The position numbers were made by a program, and so were the translations under genes. Positions 18,840 to 37,059 of a DNA stretch of 44,651 nucleotides are shown in pieces; position 1 is the first letter of the stretch, and the number at the start of each line of letters is the position of its first letter. The notes beneath the pieces were generated by a model that saw only the letters and a list, made by a program, of their open reading frames with translations, was not told where the DNA came from and searched no databases. The stretch covers positions 1 through 44,651 of the forward strand of contig WHTT01000053.1 of assembly GCA_009377605.1 (NCBI GenBank). Direction: 5' to 3'. The DNA comes from Luteitalea sp. (lineage in GTDB: Bacteria > Acidobacteriota > Vicinamibacteria > Vicinamibacterales > Vicinamibacteraceae).

Positions 18840-18996
18840 GTGACAGGGTGACAGGGTGATGGGGTGACTAGGTGACGGGGCGGTTCGGTAATCGGGGGTG
18901 GAAGGCGAACGACGCGGGCTCTTCCCTCGAAGCAAAGCCGCGTACGCTCGAGCCGCCCCATCACCTTGTCACCCCCTCACCCCCTCACCCTGTCAC
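18840..18996. repeat. 157-nt inverted-repeat element spanning the start of the CRTAC1 gene
   Basis: The left arm (18840-18883) is built of GTGACAGG/GTGATGGG heptamer-octamer units; its reverse complement matches the right arm (18953-18996) at about 39 of 44 positions by eye. A 69-nt loop lies between. The right arm and the related units after it (to about 19024) are translated as the N-terminal region of the CRTAC1 protein, and its GTG start codon (18872) lies in the left arm. The RNA hairpin would hide that start. Confidence 0.75.
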
Positions 18997-20800
18997 CTCA
19001 TCACTCCCTCACCTGCTCACCCTGCTGCTAATCGCCGCTGTTGGCGGCGCTGCCCTGGCCCAGACCCCACCCGGCTCCCCCGCTGGCGGCGCGAGCACGG
19101 CCGGTGTGTTTGCACCGGTCAAGGACAAGGAATCACGACCGATCACAGCGGGTGGGTTCGTCGAAGATGCGCCCGTCGTCTTCGAAGACCGTACGCGCGG
19201 CTCCGGCTTGGAGCAGTTTCGCCATGTCTCCGGCTCTCCCCAAAAACAGTTCATCTTGGAAGCTCCGTCCGGGGGTGTCGCGCTCGTCGACATCGACAAC
19301 GACGGCTGGCTGGACGTCTATCTCCTGAACGGCAGCACCGTCGAAGCTCTCGACGGCAGCACCGCCGCGCCGCACGCAATGCTGCTTCGTAACAACGGCG
19401 ATCTCACCTTTACCGACATCACGACCCGCGCTGGCGTGGCGAACGAGCGGTGGGGATTTGGCGTGGCCGCGGGCGATTTCAACAACGACGGCTGGCTCGA
19501 CCTCTACGTGACGAACTTCGGCGAGAACCGCCTCTATCGCAACAACCGAGACGGAACCTTCACCGATGTGGCGGCAGCGATGGGCGTCGCGGGCGGAGGC
19601 TGGTCGACCGGCGCCAGCTTTGGCGACTACGATCGTGACGGCCGGCTCGATCTCTTCGTCGCCGGCTACGTCGATGTGGACGCGAGCCGCCCGCCGACGC
19701 CAACCGAGCTTTCGGATGGCCGCACCTCTTGCTCGTATCGCGGCGAGTCCGTCATGTGCGGCCCGCGCGGGCTCGAGGGCGCGCCCGATCGCCTGTACCG
19801 CAATACGGGCTCACGCTTCGTCGATGTGACCGACCAAGCTGGCGTCGCCGATGCCGAGCGCTACTATGGATTTGCCGTGGCGTGGGCCGACGTAGACCAA
19901 GACGAGGCGCTCGACTTGCTGGTGGTTAACGATTCCACGCCCAACTACCTGTACCGGAACCGTGGAAACGGCACGTTCGAGGAGGTGGGATTTCCCTCCG
20001 GCTTCGCGCTCAACGAGGAGGGACGCGAGCAGGCTGGAATGGGACTCGCCATCGGCGACTACGACAACGACGGCGACCTCGACACCTACATCACGAATTT
20101 CTCAGACGATTCGAACACGCTTCGGCGCAACGATGGGCGCGGCTCGTTTGTCGATGTCACGGCGCAGAGCGGCCTTCGCCTGCCGACGATGCCGTTTCTC
20201 GGCTGGGGCACCGGCTTTCTCGATGTGGACAACGACGGCTGGCTGGACCTGTTCGTGGCGAACGGGCACCTCTATCCACAGGTTGATCGGTTCGACTGGG
20301 GCATGACCTGGGCGCAGCGCCCCCTTCTCTTCCGCAACCGCGGCGGAGAGCGCTTCGAGGAGGTGCCCGCTGCCCCCAGTGGCGGGCTCGCCACGCTGGT
20401 ATCGGCCCGGGGCGCGGCGTTTGGCGATCTCGATCGCGACGGGCGGGTCGATGTCGTCCTGAACAACCATGATGGAGCGCCGACGCTGCTGCACAATGTC
20501 TCGACCGCCGGCCATTGGTTGTCGCTCCGGCTGGTGGGCGCTCCCGGCGGCCGGCGCGACGCCATTGGGGCGTCGGTAACCGTCAGGGCGGGCGACATGA
20601 GCTGGCGCCGCGATGTCATGAGCGGTGGAAGCTATTGCTCGCAATCGGACCTCGCCGTGCACGTGGGACTGGGCCGCATGACGCGCATCGCGTCGATCAC
20701 CGTCCGATGGCCAAGCGGAGAAGAGGAAGCGTTCTCCGTGCCGGGGATCGATCGACATGTGACGTTGGTCCAGGGCAGCGGCTCAGCGCAAGCGCCATGA
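18872..20800 (+). CDS. CRTAC1-family protein: FG-GAP/VCBS propeller with ASPIC/UnbV domain, exported
   Basis: The protein has at least seven FG-GAP repeats with calcium-type loops: DIDNDGWLDVYL, DFNNDGWLDLYV, DYDRDGRLDLFV, DVDQDEALDLLV, DYDNDGDLDTYI, DVDNDGWLDLFV and DLDRDGRVDVVL. A C-terminal ASPIC/UnbV domain (about 550-630) includes GGSYCSQSDLAVHVGLG and ITVRWPSG. It should be an extracytoplasmic propeller, possibly a lectin-like or scaffold partner of the TonB receptor. The start is uncertain: GTG 18872 gives 642 residues, but the first ~47 are encoded by a repeat element, and the hydrophobic signal core is LLTLLLIAAVGGAALA. Its stop overlaps the next gene by four nucleotides. Confidence 0.85.
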   Translation: MTGRFGNRGWKANDAGSSLEAKPRTLEPPHHLVTPSPPHPVTSSLPHLLTLLLIAAVGGAALAQTPPGSPAGGASTAGVFAPVKDKESRPITAGGFVEDAPVVFEDRTRGSGLEQFRHVSGSPQKQFILEAPSGGVALVDIDNDGWLDVYLLNGSTVEALDGSTAAPHAMLLRNNGDLTFTDITTRAGVANERWGFGVAAGDFNNDGWLDLYVTNFGENRLYRNNRDGTFTDVAAAMGVAGGGWSTGASFGDYDRDGRLDLFVAGYVDVDASRPPTPTELSDGRTSCSYRGESVMCGPRGLEGAPDRLYRNTGSRFVDVTDQAGVADAERYYGFAVAWADVDQDEALDLLVVNDSTPNYLYRNRGNGTFEEVGFPSGFALNEEGREQAGMGLAIGDYDNDGDLDTYITNFSDDSNTLRRNDGRGSFVDVTAQSGLRLPTMPFLGWGTGFLDVDNDGWLDLFVANGHLYPQVDRFDWGMTWAQRPLLFRNRGGERFEEVPAAPSGGLATLVSARGAAFGDLDRDGRVDVVLNNHDGAPTLLHNVSTAGHWLSLRLVGAPGGRRDAIGASVTVRAGDMSWRRDVMSGGSYCSQSDLAVHVGLGRMTRIASITVRWPSGEEEAFSVPGIDRHVTLVQGSGSAQAP

Positions 20801-32186: not shown

Positions 32187-32337
32187 TCCCACAGCCCTTT
32201 TCGCCTGCAAGCGGTAGGCAAAGAACCGTAACGTACCTTACCTCGACCGTCCCAGCTAGTATAAAATCACTATATCTTCGATTGTTTCACTTACTGCGCT
32301 GCAGGGTGACGTGCACGTTTTTGCGGGGAGGAACGTG

Positions 32338-35300
32338 ATGGCCGCAAGATGTTCTTGGTCTCGGCGGAGCTGGTGCGTCCCGCTCCTGCTGTCCGTCTCA
32401 CTGCTGGGGGCCTCCGAAGGGACGGCCTTGGCCCAGCGCTTCACGGCCGATCTGAGTGGCACGGTGGTCGATGACAGCGGCGCCGTGCTGCCGGGCGCCA
32501 CCGTGACGCTCACCAACGAAGGCTCGCGTGTCCCACGGACTACCGTGACCAACGAGGCCGGCTTCTTCACGTTCTCGGCCGCGCCGGCCGCCACCTACAC
32601 GCTCACGATCGAGCTCTCGGGCTTCACCACCGCAGAGATTACCGGGATTGCGCTCCAGGCTGGCGACCGCCGGTCGGTCCGCACGGTGACGTTGGGCGTG
32701 AGCGGGCTGAGCGAGACCATCACGGTGAGCGCCGAGACTTCGTTGACGCCCCTGACCACCGGCGAGAAGAGCGCCACCCTGACGGCGCGGCAGATCGAGG
32801 AGCTCCCCATCATTGGGACGAGCTCCGCCGAGGTGCTGCGGATCCTGCCCGGTATGACGCCGGTGACCAACGCGACGACCAATCGTCCCGGCTTCACGGG
32901 AGAGGTCTACGGCATCAACGGGAACGGCGAGTATCAAGGCGGCGGCAGCAATAATCAAAGCGCGATCGGAAACTTCAGCGGCAACGGCACCCGGACGCAG
33001 GCGCTGGACATTACGATCGACGGTGCGCCGGGGGCGGATCCGGGCTGCAACTGTGCCACCTCGGTGAACCCGAACTCGGAGTTCGTCCAAGAGTTCAAGG
33101 TGCTGCAGTCCAACTTCGGCGCCGAGCATGCGAAGGGGCCCGTGGCGATGTCGGTGGTCAGCAAGCAAGGCGGTCAGAGCTTCCACGGCGCGGCCTTTGC
33201 GAACATTCGCGACTACCACCTCAACTCGAATGAATGGTTCGCCAATAGCATCGATGCCGAGAAGATCAAGAACCAGTTCTTCTATCCCGGCTTCACGGTG
33301 GGCGGACCGCTCGTCGTGCCGAAGCTCAACGAGAACCGCGACAAGCTCTTCTTCTTCTTTGGCTATCAGTACTTCAAGCAGCGGCTCGACACCGGCTTCA
33401 TCAAGTCGTGGGTCCCGACCGACGCCATGCGTCAGGGCGATTTCAGCCAGGCGGCCAATCTCGGGCTATCGGGCAGCTTCGTCAACAGCGTGCCAAGCGG
33501 CGTCGACGGAGGGGTCATCCCGAGTAGCGAGATCGATCCCGGCGGTCGGGTGCTCTTGGACCTCTTTCCCCAGGCCAATGCCGACGCGAACGCCACCGGC
33601 GGGTTCAACTACGTCGACAACTTGCTCGTCGATCAAAACGGCTATCAGGCGCTTGGCCGTGTGGACGCCAATATCAGTGACAGCACCAAGCTGTTCGTGC
33701 GCTACAACATGCAGCGCGAGACACAGCCCTTCGTGATCGGTTTGTGGTGGCGCAACGGCGAGCGGCAGGTGCCGTATCCGTCGCCGATCGAGGCCAACAA
33801 TCGATCCGATTCGATGACCGCCAGCTTGACGAAGGTGTTTGGCCCGTCGCTGACCAACGAGACAATCTTCGCGGTCACGTACATCGACTTCCCCAACGAG
33901 TTCACGAATCCGGAGAGCATCTCGCGCCAGGCGCTCGGCTACCCCTACAGCGGGGTGTTCGGCGAGAGTGACCAGATTCCGTCCATCGACGCCGGCTCTG
34001 GCGGTCCGATGGTCTTCAATCCTGGCGGCTTCGATCCGGTGCTTTTCGCGACGAAGTGGCAGGTGGCAGCGCTCAACAACGTGACGAAGGTGTTCGGCAC
34101 GCACGCCGTGAAGGTCGGCTTCTTCTTCGAGCATGTCACCAACAACCAGCCAGGCAACGGCAACAGCAATGGCAACATCGTCCTCAATAACACGCTGAGC
34201 CACAGCACGGGTAACACGTTTGCCGACCTTCTGCTCGGTCGAATCGGGTCCTACAACGAACAGACCCAAAACGTCTTGCACAACATCGGTTACAACCGCG
34301 TCGAAGGGTACGCCCAGGACAGCTGGCGGCTGTTCCCCAACCTCACGGTCGACTACGGCGCCCGCATCTCGTTCATCGGTCCATGGTACGACCGTGAAGG
34401 ACAGGGCCTCCTCGTGTGGGACCAGAACCGCTACGACCCCAATGCGCCGGCGGGCGCGTTCCCCGGTCTGGTCTGGAACGCGATAGACGGCTCGATCCCG
34501 ACTAGCGGTGTGGATTCCTCGCTGTTCGTCCAGCCGCGTGTGGGCGTTGCCTGGGACGTCCGTGGAACAGGCGCCACCGTGGTCCGTGGCGGCTTCGGCG
34601 TCTTCAAGTGGCACGATGCGCAGCAGCCGTTCCCCGAAGCCATCGACCTCGCGAACGGCGTGCGGGCATTCAGCTTCAACGACGAGCCGCGCACGCTCCG
34701 AAGCCTCGAAGGGCTCGGTGGAGGCTCCATCGTATTCGGTGGGAGCGCGCTCGACATCAACGACGACAAGCAGCCAACCACGTACTCCTGGAGCACCACC
34801 GTCAATCAGAAACTGCCCTGGTCGATGAACCTCGAGCTGAGCTACGTCGGCAACGAGAGTCGGGACCTGATGAACTTCGATCTCGCCAACCTCAATGCTG
34901 TGCCGCTCGGCGCGATGCTCAACGACCCGGAAGGTAATGCGGACGACTATCGACCGCGCCCTCAGTACGGTGACCTCAACGTCTACCGCCACAGCATGTA
35001 TCAGAACTACCATGGCCTCCAGGCGCTCTTGACGCGGCAGACGGGCCGATTCGGCGTGACGGGCGGCTATACGTTCTCGAAGAGCCTGGGCATTCGATCG
35101 GGTGATCCCGGCGGCTCGCGAACCGGGTCCGAGTACATCCTGGATTCGCGGCAGTTCAACTACGGCGTCCTTGGCACCGACCGGAGGCACGTCGCCTCAA
35201 TCGCCTACAACTGGCAGCTCGGCGAGCTGCAGGGCAACCGCATGCTCAACGCGCTGCTCGGTGACTGGCAGGTGGCTGGCATCTCTCAGTTCATCAGCGG

Positions 35301-35769
35301 TGCGCCCATTCTTGGCAACTTCGACATTCAAGGGACGCTGGCCGACGGCACACCGATCAATGCGACGCAAATCACAGGCTCGCCGCAGGTCCGCGCGCAG
35401 CCGGTGGTCCTCTGTGATCCGAGAGACGATGTGCCGGATGGATTCCTGTTCAACCCGAGCTGCTTCGGACCGCCCTCTCCGGGCAACAATGGCGCCTACA
35501 TCTTTCCGGACATCAGGACCCAGGCTTATCTCAACCACGACCTCTCGCTCATGAAGAACATCCCCATTGGCCGGGGCGACCATCGTCTTCAGGTACGGGT
35601 TGCGGCGTACAATGTCTTCAATCACCCGATTCGCGCCGCTGATCAAGCCACGAATCTCACGCTCAACTACGATCAAGGGGAACAGGTGAACGCCGATTTC
35701 GGCCGTCTACCAGAAGACAACAAGTTCGGGCGCCGAATCGTCCAGATTGCGCTGCGGTACACCTTCTAA
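32338..35769 (+). CDS. TonB-dependent receptor with carboxypeptidase-regulatory-like domain (Oar type)
   Basis: ATG 32338 is set by GGGGAGGA (32325-32332); a GTG at 32311 is in frame but poorer. The about 1143-residue product has a signal peptide (CVPLLLSVSLLGASEGTALAQ), a CarboxypepD_reg-like domain (DLSGTVVDDSGAVLPGATVTLTNEGS ... YTLTIELSGFTT), a plug (EELPIIGTSSAEVLRILPGMTPVTN ... NNQSAIGNFSGNGTRTQALDITIDG) with a CNC pair (DPGCNCATS) that may form a disulfide, and a barrel ending in RRIVQIALRYTF. The ligand is unknown; the divergent FG-GAP/GH88/SDR operon suggests uronic-acid oligosaccharides. TATAAA at 32260-32265 may be part of the promoter but the -35 is weak. Confidence 0.9.
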   Translation: MAARCSWSRRSWCVPLLLSVSLLGASEGTALAQRFTADLSGTVVDDSGAVLPGATVTLTNEGSRVPRTTVTNEAGFFTFSAAPAATYTLTIELSGFTTAEITGIALQAGDRRSVRTVTLGVSGLSETITVSAETSLTPLTTGEKSATLTARQIEELPIIGTSSAEVLRILPGMTPVTNATTNRPGFTGEVYGINGNGEYQGGGSNNQSAIGNFSGNGTRTQALDITIDGAPGADPGCNCATSVNPNSEFVQEFKVLQSNFGAEHAKGPVAMSVVSKQGGQSFHGAAFANIRDYHLNSNEWFANSIDAEKIKNQFFYPGFTVGGPLVVPKLNENRDKLFFFFGYQYFKQRLDTGFIKSWVPTDAMRQGDFSQAANLGLSGSFVNSVPSGVDGGVIPSSEIDPGGRVLLDLFPQANADANATGGFNYVDNLLVDQNGYQALGRVDANISDSTKLFVRYNMQRETQPFVIGLWWRNGERQVPYPSPIEANNRSDSMTASLTKVFGPSLTNETIFAVTYIDFPNEFTNPESISRQALGYPYSGVFGESDQIPSIDAGSGGPMVFNPGGFDPVLFATKWQVAALNNVTKVFGTHAVKVGFFFEHVTNNQPGNGNSNGNIVLNNTLSHSTGNTFADLLLGRIGSYNEQTQNVLHNIGYNRVEGYAQDSWRLFPNLTVDYGARISFIGPWYDREGQGLLVWDQNRYDPNAPAGAFPGLVWNAIDGSIPTSGVDSSLFVQPRVGVAWDVRGTGATVVRGGFGVFKWHDAQQPFPEAIDLANGVRAFSFNDEPRTLRSLEGLGGGSIVFGGSALDINDDKQPTTYSWSTTVNQKLPWSMNLELSYVGNESRDLMNFDLANLNAVPLGAMLNDPEGNADDYRPRPQYGDLNVYRHSMYQNYHGLQALLTRQTGRFGVTGGYTFSKSLGIRSGDPGGSRTGSEYILDSRQFNYGVLGTDRRHVASIAYNWQLGELQGNRMLNALLGDWQVAGISQFISGAPILGNFDIQGTLADGTPINATQITGSPQVRAQPVVLCDPRDDVPDGFLFNPSCFGPPSPGNNGAYIFPDIRTQAYLNHDLSLMKNIPIGRGDHRLQVRVAAYNVFNHPIRAADQATNLTLNYDQGEQVNADFGRLPEDNKFGRRIVQIALRYTF

Positions 35770-35788: not shown

Positions 35789-35939
35789 ACCACGAAGGGC
35801 GCGAAGGTTACACCACGAAGAACACGAAGGCCACGAAGAATTCAACCACGAAGGACACGAAAGCCACGAAGAAGACAATTGATCTTCTTCGTGCTCTTCG
35901 TGTTCTTCGTGGTGTACCCCTTCGTGCCCTTCGTGGTTT
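35789..35939. repeat. Inverted repeat of CACGAAG / CTTCGTG units running into the TPR gene
   Basis: The left arm (35789-35841, units such as CCACGAAGAACACGAAG) pairs with the right arm (35884-35939, units such as CTTCGTGTTCTTCGTGG) almost perfectly. The central part repeats more CACGAAG units and ends AATTGATC. The right arm leads into the TTG start of the TPR gene and its frame stays open through the repeat (LRALRVLRGVPLRALRG). It resembles the element at 18840-18996 in layout but not in sequence. Confidence 0.8.
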
Positions 35940-37059
35940 GATCTTGGTGCCCTTCGTGGTTGGGTACTTCGGCGGCGCGGCAGCCACAGCACAGCAGACC
36001 AGCAACCCGCTCACGCTCTTCCAGCGCGCGGTCGCCTTGCAGCAGCAGGGTCAGCTCGAAGCGGCCGCCAGCGCGTATCGAGCGTTCTTGACGAAGCAAC
36101 CGGACAACCTCGCGGGCCGCTCGAACCTGGCGGTCGTCCTGGTTCAGCTCGGACACTACGAAGACGCGATTGCCCAGTACCGGCGTGCTCTCGCCATCGA
36201 CGAGGGAAACGCCGCCGTACGGCTCAACCTTGCAATCGCGCACCACAAAGCGGCGCAGTTCCAGGAGGCTGCGGCAGAGCTCGAGCGGGTTCGAGCCATT
36301 CAGCCTGACAACCTGCAGGCGACACTACTCCAGGCGGACTGTCATCTGCGCCTTGGTGAATACAACGCGGTCGTCAAGATTCTCGAGCCCTTGGAGCCGC
36401 GACACCGAGACGACCTTGCGATTGCGTACGTGCTCGGGATGGCATACCTGCGAAGTGGCCATCCGGACCACGGCCAGCTGCTCATCGATCGAATCATGCG
36501 GCGCGGCGAGTCAGCCCAAGCGCATCTGCTGATGGGTGTCGCAATGCGTGAGGTTCACGATCTCGCCGGCGCGACCAAGGAGCTCGCCAAAGCCGTGGCG
36601 CTCGATCCAAGCCTTCCTGACGTTCACACGTACTACGGCCTGTCGCTGCTGGCGACTGGGAACCGGGATCTCGCGCGGAAGGAGCTCGAAGCGGCGCTTC
36701 GGGCCGATCCCAATGACTACGAGGCCAATTTGAACCTCGGCTCTCTGGCCAAGGAGGACCAACAGCTCGACGAGGCCACGCAGCTGCTGGAGCGCGCCCT
36801 CCGTGCGCGCCCAGGCGATCCTGCGACGCGGTATCAAGTTGCCACCTTGCACATGGCCGTCGGCGAGGTGGTCGAAGCGCAGCGCATGCTGGAGCAGCTC
36901 GTCGAGGAGCAGCCCAAGTGGCTCGAGCCACACGTCTCCCTAGCGACGGTCTACTATCGCTTGAAGCGCAAGAAAGACGGTGACCGCGAGCGCGCCATCG
37001 TCGAGCAGTTGAACCGCGAGATCCAGGCCAAGCAACCTGGCGCCAAGAAGCCCGAGTAG
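35938..37059 (+). CDS. Exported TPR-repeat protein
   Basis: With TTG 35938 as start, the 373-residue product begins LILVPFVVGYFGGAAATAQQ, a short signal peptide encoded partly by the CTTCGTGG repeat. About nine TPR units follow, such as LFQRAVALQQQGQLEAAASAYRAFLTKQPDN, GRSNLAVVLVQLGHYEDAIAQYRRALAIDEGN and VHTYYGLSLLATGNRDLARKELEAALRADPND, ending with a lysine-rich tail (NREIQAKQPGAKKPE). No ATG or good ribosome site is visible, so the true start is uncertain; the frame is also open further upstream through the repeat. It follows the TonB receptor by about 170 nt, the same receptor-then-TPR order as at 15351-21930. Confidence 0.8.
   Translation: MILVPFVVGYFGGAAATAQQTSNPLTLFQRAVALQQQGQLEAAASAYRAFLTKQPDNLAGRSNLAVVLVQLGHYEDAIAQYRRALAIDEGNAAVRLNLAIAHHKAAQFQEAAAELERVRAIQPDNLQATLLQADCHLRLGEYNAVVKILEPLEPRHRDDLAIAYVLGMAYLRSGHPDHGQLLIDRIMRRGESAQAHLLMGVAMREVHDLAGATKELAKAVALDPSLPDVHTYYGLSLLATGNRDLARKELEAALRADPNDYEANLNLGSLAKEDQQLDEATQLLERALRARPGDPATRYQVATLHMAVGEVVEAQRMLEQLVEEQPKWLEPHVSLATVYYRLKRKKDGDRERAIVEQLNREIQAKQPGAKKPE

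Follow-up and report, generated by a model that had tools for sequence, protein, structure and literature searches.

A dispersed gene-end hairpin that appears to encode the signal peptides of downstream exported proteins in Luteitalea and its relatives

The window analysed here, meaning the whole stretch of 44,651 nucleotides of Luteitalea sp. DNA (contig WHTT01000053.1), carries a gene for a TonB-dependent receptor, the second such receptor in the window, followed in the same direction by a gene for a TPR protein, with a long hairpin repeat at their junction. The features are the following:

32311 to 35769, + strand: upstream gene, TonB-dependent outer-membrane receptor with a carboxypeptidase-regulatory-like N-domain (Pfam OMP_b-brl_4, 2.5e-135, and CarboxypepD_reg)
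35790 to 35871, + strand: left arm of the hairpin, six CACGAAG units, some of them 9 nt apart, read in the TPR frame as HEG / TTKNTKATK
35872 to 35886, + strand: apex or loop, AAGACAATTGATCTT, AT-rich and containing the ATT at 35878
35887 to 35958, + strand: right arm, six CTTCGTG units, read in the TPR frame as LRALRVLRG... and, after a register change, as LILVPFVV
35938 to 37059, + strand: gene for the TPR protein, 373 aa from a TTG, matching Pfam TPR families
35938 to 35991, + strand: putative signal peptide of the TPR protein, (M)ILVPFVVGYFGGAAATA before QQTS, proposed from the translation and the in-frame starts, its h-region mostly repeat-encoded

The first-pass annotation had described a long inverted repeat of CACGAAG and CTTCGTG units after the second TonB receptor, and both parts of this description held: the receptor is recognised as such by Pfam, and positions 35790-35958 form an inverted repeat of these 7-mers with a usual spacing of 9 nt, whose first unit lies 21 nt past the receptor stop codon (stop at 35769). 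There are 12 occurrences of the motif CTTCGTGG in the window where 1.98 would be expected, a six-fold excess reached by none of 100 shuffles, and the predicted RNA fold of the hairpin has an energy of -127.7 kcal/mol (z = -11.9). AT-rich apices like that of the window copy, such as AAAACCAATTGATTT, are also present in other hairpin copies of the same genome. No T-run lies 3' of the right arm in the window sequence, so the GC-rich stem plus U-run of an intrinsic terminator is incomplete here. Complementarity of the two-base spacers on opposite sides of the stem does not exceed chance (0.293 vs 0.321); maintenance of a perfect palindrome is thus ruled out, since the spacers do not co-vary, and what is conserved is the 7-mer. 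Searches against Rfam returned two miRNA families only, far below their gathering scores, which were discarded.

The hairpin is dispersed. With a cluster defined as at least four exact 7-mer units, the genome of the window contains 33 clusters, 30 with the same polarity (CACGAAG, then CTTCGTG) and three with units on one strand only. Neighbouring genes were called with a codon-usage model trained on this genome, starts being also judged by inspection, and the clusters were found between convergent genes in 13 cases, between codirectional genes in 18 and between divergent genes in none. One divergent placement was seen among another 64 clusters, drawn from two genomes of the order that are rich in them and from additional relatives within the phylum, and three among the 76 clusters of a second genome set, giving 4 cases among 173 clusters in related genomes, whereas about one in five background gene pairs with a gap of at least 60 nt is divergent. 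Of 215 flanking gene ends, 142 have the repeat edge 0-25 nt after their stop codon. Because it is placed just after stop codons and almost never between divergent genes, the hairpin is a REP-like gene-end element and not an N-terminal element as such. It was also proposed in the first-pass annotation that repeats of this kind sit after a TonB receptor and at the N-terminus of the next exported protein; the N-terminal overlap stands, while the placement rule is wider, namely after any stop codon, and specificity for TonB receptors is ruled out, given that the hairpin follows genes of many lengths and kinds. A scan of the genome collection located the hairpin in Gammaproteobacteria, Deltaproteobacteria, Planctomycetes, Verrucomicrobia, Chloroflexi, Bacteroidales and others, which excludes a restriction to Acidobacteriota; in this wider collection the distance from stop to hairpin is looser (median 34 nt), and the signal-peptide cases described below were seen only among relatives of the window's genome.

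When downstream genes overlapped by the repeat were surveyed, 16 genes in tight operons appeared to take their signal peptide from the hairpin, in line with the first-pass suggestion. Three of these putative cases belong to the window's genome (the window itself, L048 on C19 and L064 on C70), eight to genome G401 (L259, L261, L266, L275, L277, L279, L286 and L287) and two to G318 (L297 and L298), with L306 as a further single case and two more from the second genome set, both in L408 (G449). At that locus two consecutive genes are each preceded by a CTTCGTG hairpin that seemingly encodes their signal sequences. Most of the 16 mature parts fall into exported families according to Pfam, including solute-binding, periplasmic-binding, cytochrome c, reaction-centre cytochrome, gamma-glutamyltranspeptidase and SpoIID families as well as alginate-export, LolA-like, TPM, TPR and DUF7133/copper-binding families; L286 has only a weak methyltransferase match, and L277, L279 and one of the L408 proteins have no Pfam match. 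By inspection and hydropathy, the repeat-encoded N-termini have the basic n-region, h-region and small-x-small site of Sec signal peptides (e.g. MIKMLNTKNTKITKTFVLSLFFVSFVAFVLKDVAAQ and MKTFQPRRPRRSRSLLGFFVCFATFVSFVVTLAAQ), the n-region being weak in the window copy.

The reading frame of the repeat differs between these genes and others into which it is open. An idealised right arm read as TTC GTG NNC (Phe-Val-x, the FV frame) has a mean hydropathy of +2.7 and no stops, while its other two frames are close to 0; two frames of the idealised left arm are basic. The last unit is in the FV frame in 15 of the 16 signal-peptide genes, against 14 FV, 14 LR and 11 SX among genes that start outside the repeat and whose frame is open into it (Fisher 8e-5, with the sorting done by hand and unblinded and the read-through classes assigned partly by eye). 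A blind version of the frame test, using as criterion A-x-A or A[QDE] before any ATG after the repeat, gave p = 0.0013 for the first genome set; in the second set the fractions were 1/8 and 1/12, which is not significant and comprises too few cases for a replication, and both sets combined gave p = 0.001. Just two of 20 read-through cases in the second set are putative signal peptides, and the frequency of such cases therefore varies strongly between genomes.

The BtuF-like and alginate-export genes allowed orthologues with and without the hairpin to be compared. L298 of G318 encodes a BtuF-like periplasmic binding protein, whose orthologues were compared throughout the genus and the order. 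Ten of these begin with an ATG or GTG at -4, which overlaps the stop codon of the upstream gene. The hairpin is present in seven genomes of two genera (G318, G462, G020, G334, G385, G487 and G489), where it begins 1-31 nt after the upstream stop and, owing to the overlapping start, lies wholly within the coding sequence. It separates the conserved start from the conserved mature domain and is in frame and stop-free in every carrier, even as the distance from start to mature domain varies between 111 and 153 nt. The resulting N-termini (e.g. MIKMLNTKNTKITKTFVLSLFFVSFVAFVLKDVAAQ and MTTKDTKKKITKHTNLLGLVFFVSFVGTFVSFVVAFQ) combine a basic Thr-Lys segment from the left arm with a hydrophobic Phe-Val segment from the right arm; orthologues from G030 (MKKLLLTLLLTVAVSAQ), G253 and G463 are without the hairpin. 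At least four hairpin state changes map to well-supported branches of the gene tree, a count in which G464 is scored as hairpin-free, although this orthologue is truncated and a CTTCGTG unit closes the visible part of its N-terminus. In pairs both carrying the hairpin, dN/dS of the repeat-encoded part is 0.31-0.56 compared with 0.14-0.18 in the mature part: constraint on the repeat-encoded segment is relaxed, but dN/dS is below 1. Among orthologues of the alginate-export gene L297, the hairpin is present in five, where the frame is FV throughout and the loop region contains a TTG, and absent from two; across both series, all 12 copies are in the coding frame. We regard the BtuF-like series as the decisive evidence for the predicted repeat-encoded signal peptides. 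The earlier idea that CTTCGTG repeats are well suited to become signal sequences is thereby largely supported, with 16 genes, most of them in the predicted F/V frame, and seven BtuF-like orthologues in which frame and start are conserved.

The window copy is more complicated. The TPR frame stays open from the receptor stop (35769) across the entire hairpin as far as the TPR domain, as the first-pass annotation had noted in reading the right arm (LRALRVLRG...) in frame into the signal peptide; the open frame is confirmed, but no standard start precedes LRALRVLRG. Indeed, the only in-frame ATG, GTG or TTG codons before the mature TPR domain are the TTG at 35938, the TTG at 35944 and the GTGs at 35947 and 35956, in agreement with the earlier statement that only TTG and GTG candidates exist. 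TTG 35938 is the sole ordinary start that yields the full hydrophobic stretch, and it gives a short signal peptide with no basic n-region. Conceivably, the ATT at 35878 in the loop could serve as an in-frame start, from which a full signal peptide would be made; ATT start codons are rare. There is neither an ATG nor a clear ribosome-binding site in this copy. The residues after the repeat constitute a putative normal cleavage site of the A-x-A-Q type, which we place at the A-x-A-Q position common to the orthologues, and the translation contains no other hydrophobic stretch before the TPR domain. The long F/V-frame run of the right arm extends from TTG 35879 to the TGA at 35939-35941, one base out of register with the TPR frame. 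Because this register change parts the F/V run from the TPR frame, the window copy may be decayed, perhaps partly. The run amounts to a small F/V-frame ORF through the right arm (35879-35941) whose stop overlaps TTG 35938, and which possibly couples to the TPR gene or is a relic of the original signal-peptide frame.

Orthologues of the TPR protein in G001-G004 are 43-54% identical to it, and wherever the upstream end was read they follow a barrel-type receptor. Of the two findings that would speak against the first-pass proposal, repeat-gene overlaps at mere chance frequency and homologues sharing the window's N-terminus without repeats, neither turned up: the signal peptides of these relatives are different, ordinary and repeat-free, and end at the same place in a small-x-A-Q type site (A-x-A-Q or similar). 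From this comparison, the n-region and the greater part of the h-region of an ordinary signal peptide appear to have given way to the repeat in the window, the residues of the cleavage site being kept. Given the lack of a good start codon, the missing basic n-region from TTG 35938 and the possible decay, the window TPR gene is a plausible example of a repeat-encoded signal peptide, weaker than the others.

As judged by eye, the relatives (L010-L013 in G001-G004) have GTG starts 7-9 nt downstream of a TANNNT box, suggesting that transcripts of this TPR family may be leaderless from these GTGs. The repeat or terminator in the receptor-TPR spacer differs from one relative to the next: G002 has a GAGGACGGAGG-type hairpin, G003 tandem copies of GACTCCC, and G001 and G004 other inverted repeats, as if these spacers were general landing sites for gene-end repeats. 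Elsewhere in the window (18840-19030), after the first TonB receptor, there is a second hairpin family made of TCACCNNN octamers, a pattern with 264/308 matches in genome G000 and 0/1 for the reversed control. With its 8-nt period, this repeat encodes part of the likely signal peptide of a CRTAC1/UnbV protein (HLVTPSPPHPVTSSLPHLLTLLLIAAVGGAALAQ), the CRTAC1 case to which the first-pass annotation had referred. Upstream of the BtuF-like gene at L417 (G463), a GGCTTGGGG-type repeat encodes the putative signal peptide MTRTAWGLRLGAWGLGPGAWACLLVTIAVAAQ and is apparently a third repeat family used in this way.

Taken with the orthologue series, the placement and frame data make it probable, in our judgement, that the CTTCGTG hairpin is a dispersed REP-like gene-end element which intrudes into the next gene when that gene is close and is tolerated there as the signal peptide of exported proteins, the window holding one copy. 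The hairpin would settle a few nucleotides after the upstream stop codon, and since the rule applies to any stop codon, it would fall into the N-terminus of the next gene wherever the next start is close or overlapping. Such an intrusion would be absorbed only by exported proteins, because what matters in a signal peptide is its composition and not an exact sequence, and solely in a frame that yields Phe-Val-x. An ACG AAG NNC reading of the left arm would then provide a basic Thr-Lys-x n-region, and a TTC GTG NNC reading of the right arm a hydrophobic Phe-Val-x core in which GTG codons recur; in the window, most of the TPR protein's h-region would come from the last units of the right arm, in place of an ordinary signal peptide. 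We infer that the repeat-encoded signal peptides are translated, secreted and cleaved, and, by analogy with REPs that stall ribosomes or stabilise mRNA, that the primary role or bias of the hairpin may lie at the 3' end of the upstream mRNA. On balance we also incline to the wider view that signal peptides have arisen repeatedly from a family of gene-end hairpins of 9-nt period, whose two arms would give a full n- and h-region when read in matching frames, and that insertion after an overlapping stop/start would have swapped export signals with function retained, many times independently.

An unlikely alternative is that the hairpin is solely an RNA element of gene ends, such as a terminator, an mRNA stabiliser or an analogue of stalling REPs, and that its overlap in the window is a passive accident, the TPR protein having lost its signal peptide or starting elsewhere. 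Placement tied to stop and not to start codons would agree with this, as would the poor start of the window copy, the random frames at non-exported neighbours and the spacers, which display no visible selection; what argues against it is the frame kept in every BtuF-like and alginate-export copy, with dN/dS below 1 in the pairs tested, and, in the window, the A-x-A-Q-type site behind the repeat as the sequel of the only hydrophobic stretch before the TPR domain. We consider it quite improbable that the repeat was recruited or kept through positive selection for a ready-made export tag. The recurrence in at least 16 genes, the repeated state changes in the BtuF-like tree (again with truncated G464 scored hairpin-free) and the apt geometry of basic left arm, hydrophobic right arm and GTG codons would fit such selection, but the placement rule is identical for exported and non-exported genes and the cases are rare outside a few genomes. 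Moreover, the spacer dinucleotides of signal-coding arms are no more hydrophobic than those of other arms, so extra selection for hydrophobic spacers was not found, and 35 of 92 non-overlapped codirectional neighbours look exported compared with a background of 41% under the same lax criterion, indicating that the hairpins do not specially seek exported genes. For these last two reasons we favour a permissive filter, in which only exported proteins tolerate the intrusion, over recruitment of repeats to make signal sequences. An assembly or consensus artefact, with collapsed or mis-joined arms creating a false read-through, is scarcely credible: the contigs are drafts and such repeats can collapse, but the same layout recurs in orthologues of independent genomes with differing unit numbers and apices, and long ORFs are intact on both sides of the hairpin.

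With regard to known systems, the CTTCGTG hairpin resembles REP/BIME elements in consisting of dispersed extragenic palindromes near gene ends, a few nucleotides past stop codons as in enterobacteria, where an effect of REPs on the upstream mRNA has been demonstrated or suggested; in E. coli, REPs located no more than 15 nt from the stop codon cause ribosomes to stall (Liang, Rudd, Deutscher 2015, as cited in PMC12306157). It differs from them in sequence and in having 7-mer units with 2-nt spacers in place of one imperfect stem of 20-40 bp, and no RAYT gene was found beside its copies: neither of the two Y1_Tnp matches in the genome is flanked by CTTCGTG hairpins, and mobilisation by a RAYT is rejected on this ground. 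Set against MITEs, which have terminal inverted repeats, a target-site duplication and a related transposase, the hairpin has inverted arms; comparison of empty with filled BtuF sites gave no evident duplication by eye, and no transposase was identified. The closest likeness is to the Yersinia RU-2/YPAL element, a dispersed hairpin element that in YPO1552 is translated in frame and contributes to the signal peptide predicted for a single putative exported protein (Delihas 2007; reviewed in PMC2229807). That element is mobile, of about 168 bp and fixed sequence, and concerns one putative new protein, whereas the CTTCGTG hairpin has 7-mer units and variable length, affects no fewer than 16 genes, the majority from conserved exported families, and offers orthologue series with and without the element. 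Rickettsia palindromic elements are likewise hairpin repeats inserted in frame into conserved protein genes (Ogata et al. 2000; PMC2229807 and PMC10969869), but they place a conserved peptide within proteins, while the present hairpin enters at the N-terminus through its gene-end position and would supply an export signal. The TAACTGA heptamers of Beggiatoaceae are also short-unit repeats scattered over distant phyla; they are direct repeats just upstream of starts (PMC4679880) and not hairpins after stops. Longer strings of the repeat match no paper in the literature searched, and short ones bring up no relevant-looking paper. Yersinia RU-2 is a limited precedent; as far as the searched literature shows, what is new is the number of genes involved, their membership of conserved families, the existence of orthologue series and the placement at gene ends.

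For annotation, the finding is a warning that N-termini of the FVxFVx or TKxTK type in genomes of this kind may belong either to real exported proteins with repeat-born signal peptides or to genes with mis-extended starts. More broadly, a rule for gene ends, a hairpin just past the stop codon, can rewrite the start of the following gene, and this would represent a repeated case in bacteria of repeat DNA becoming apparent working protein sequence, one in which orthologues with and without the repeat can be compared.
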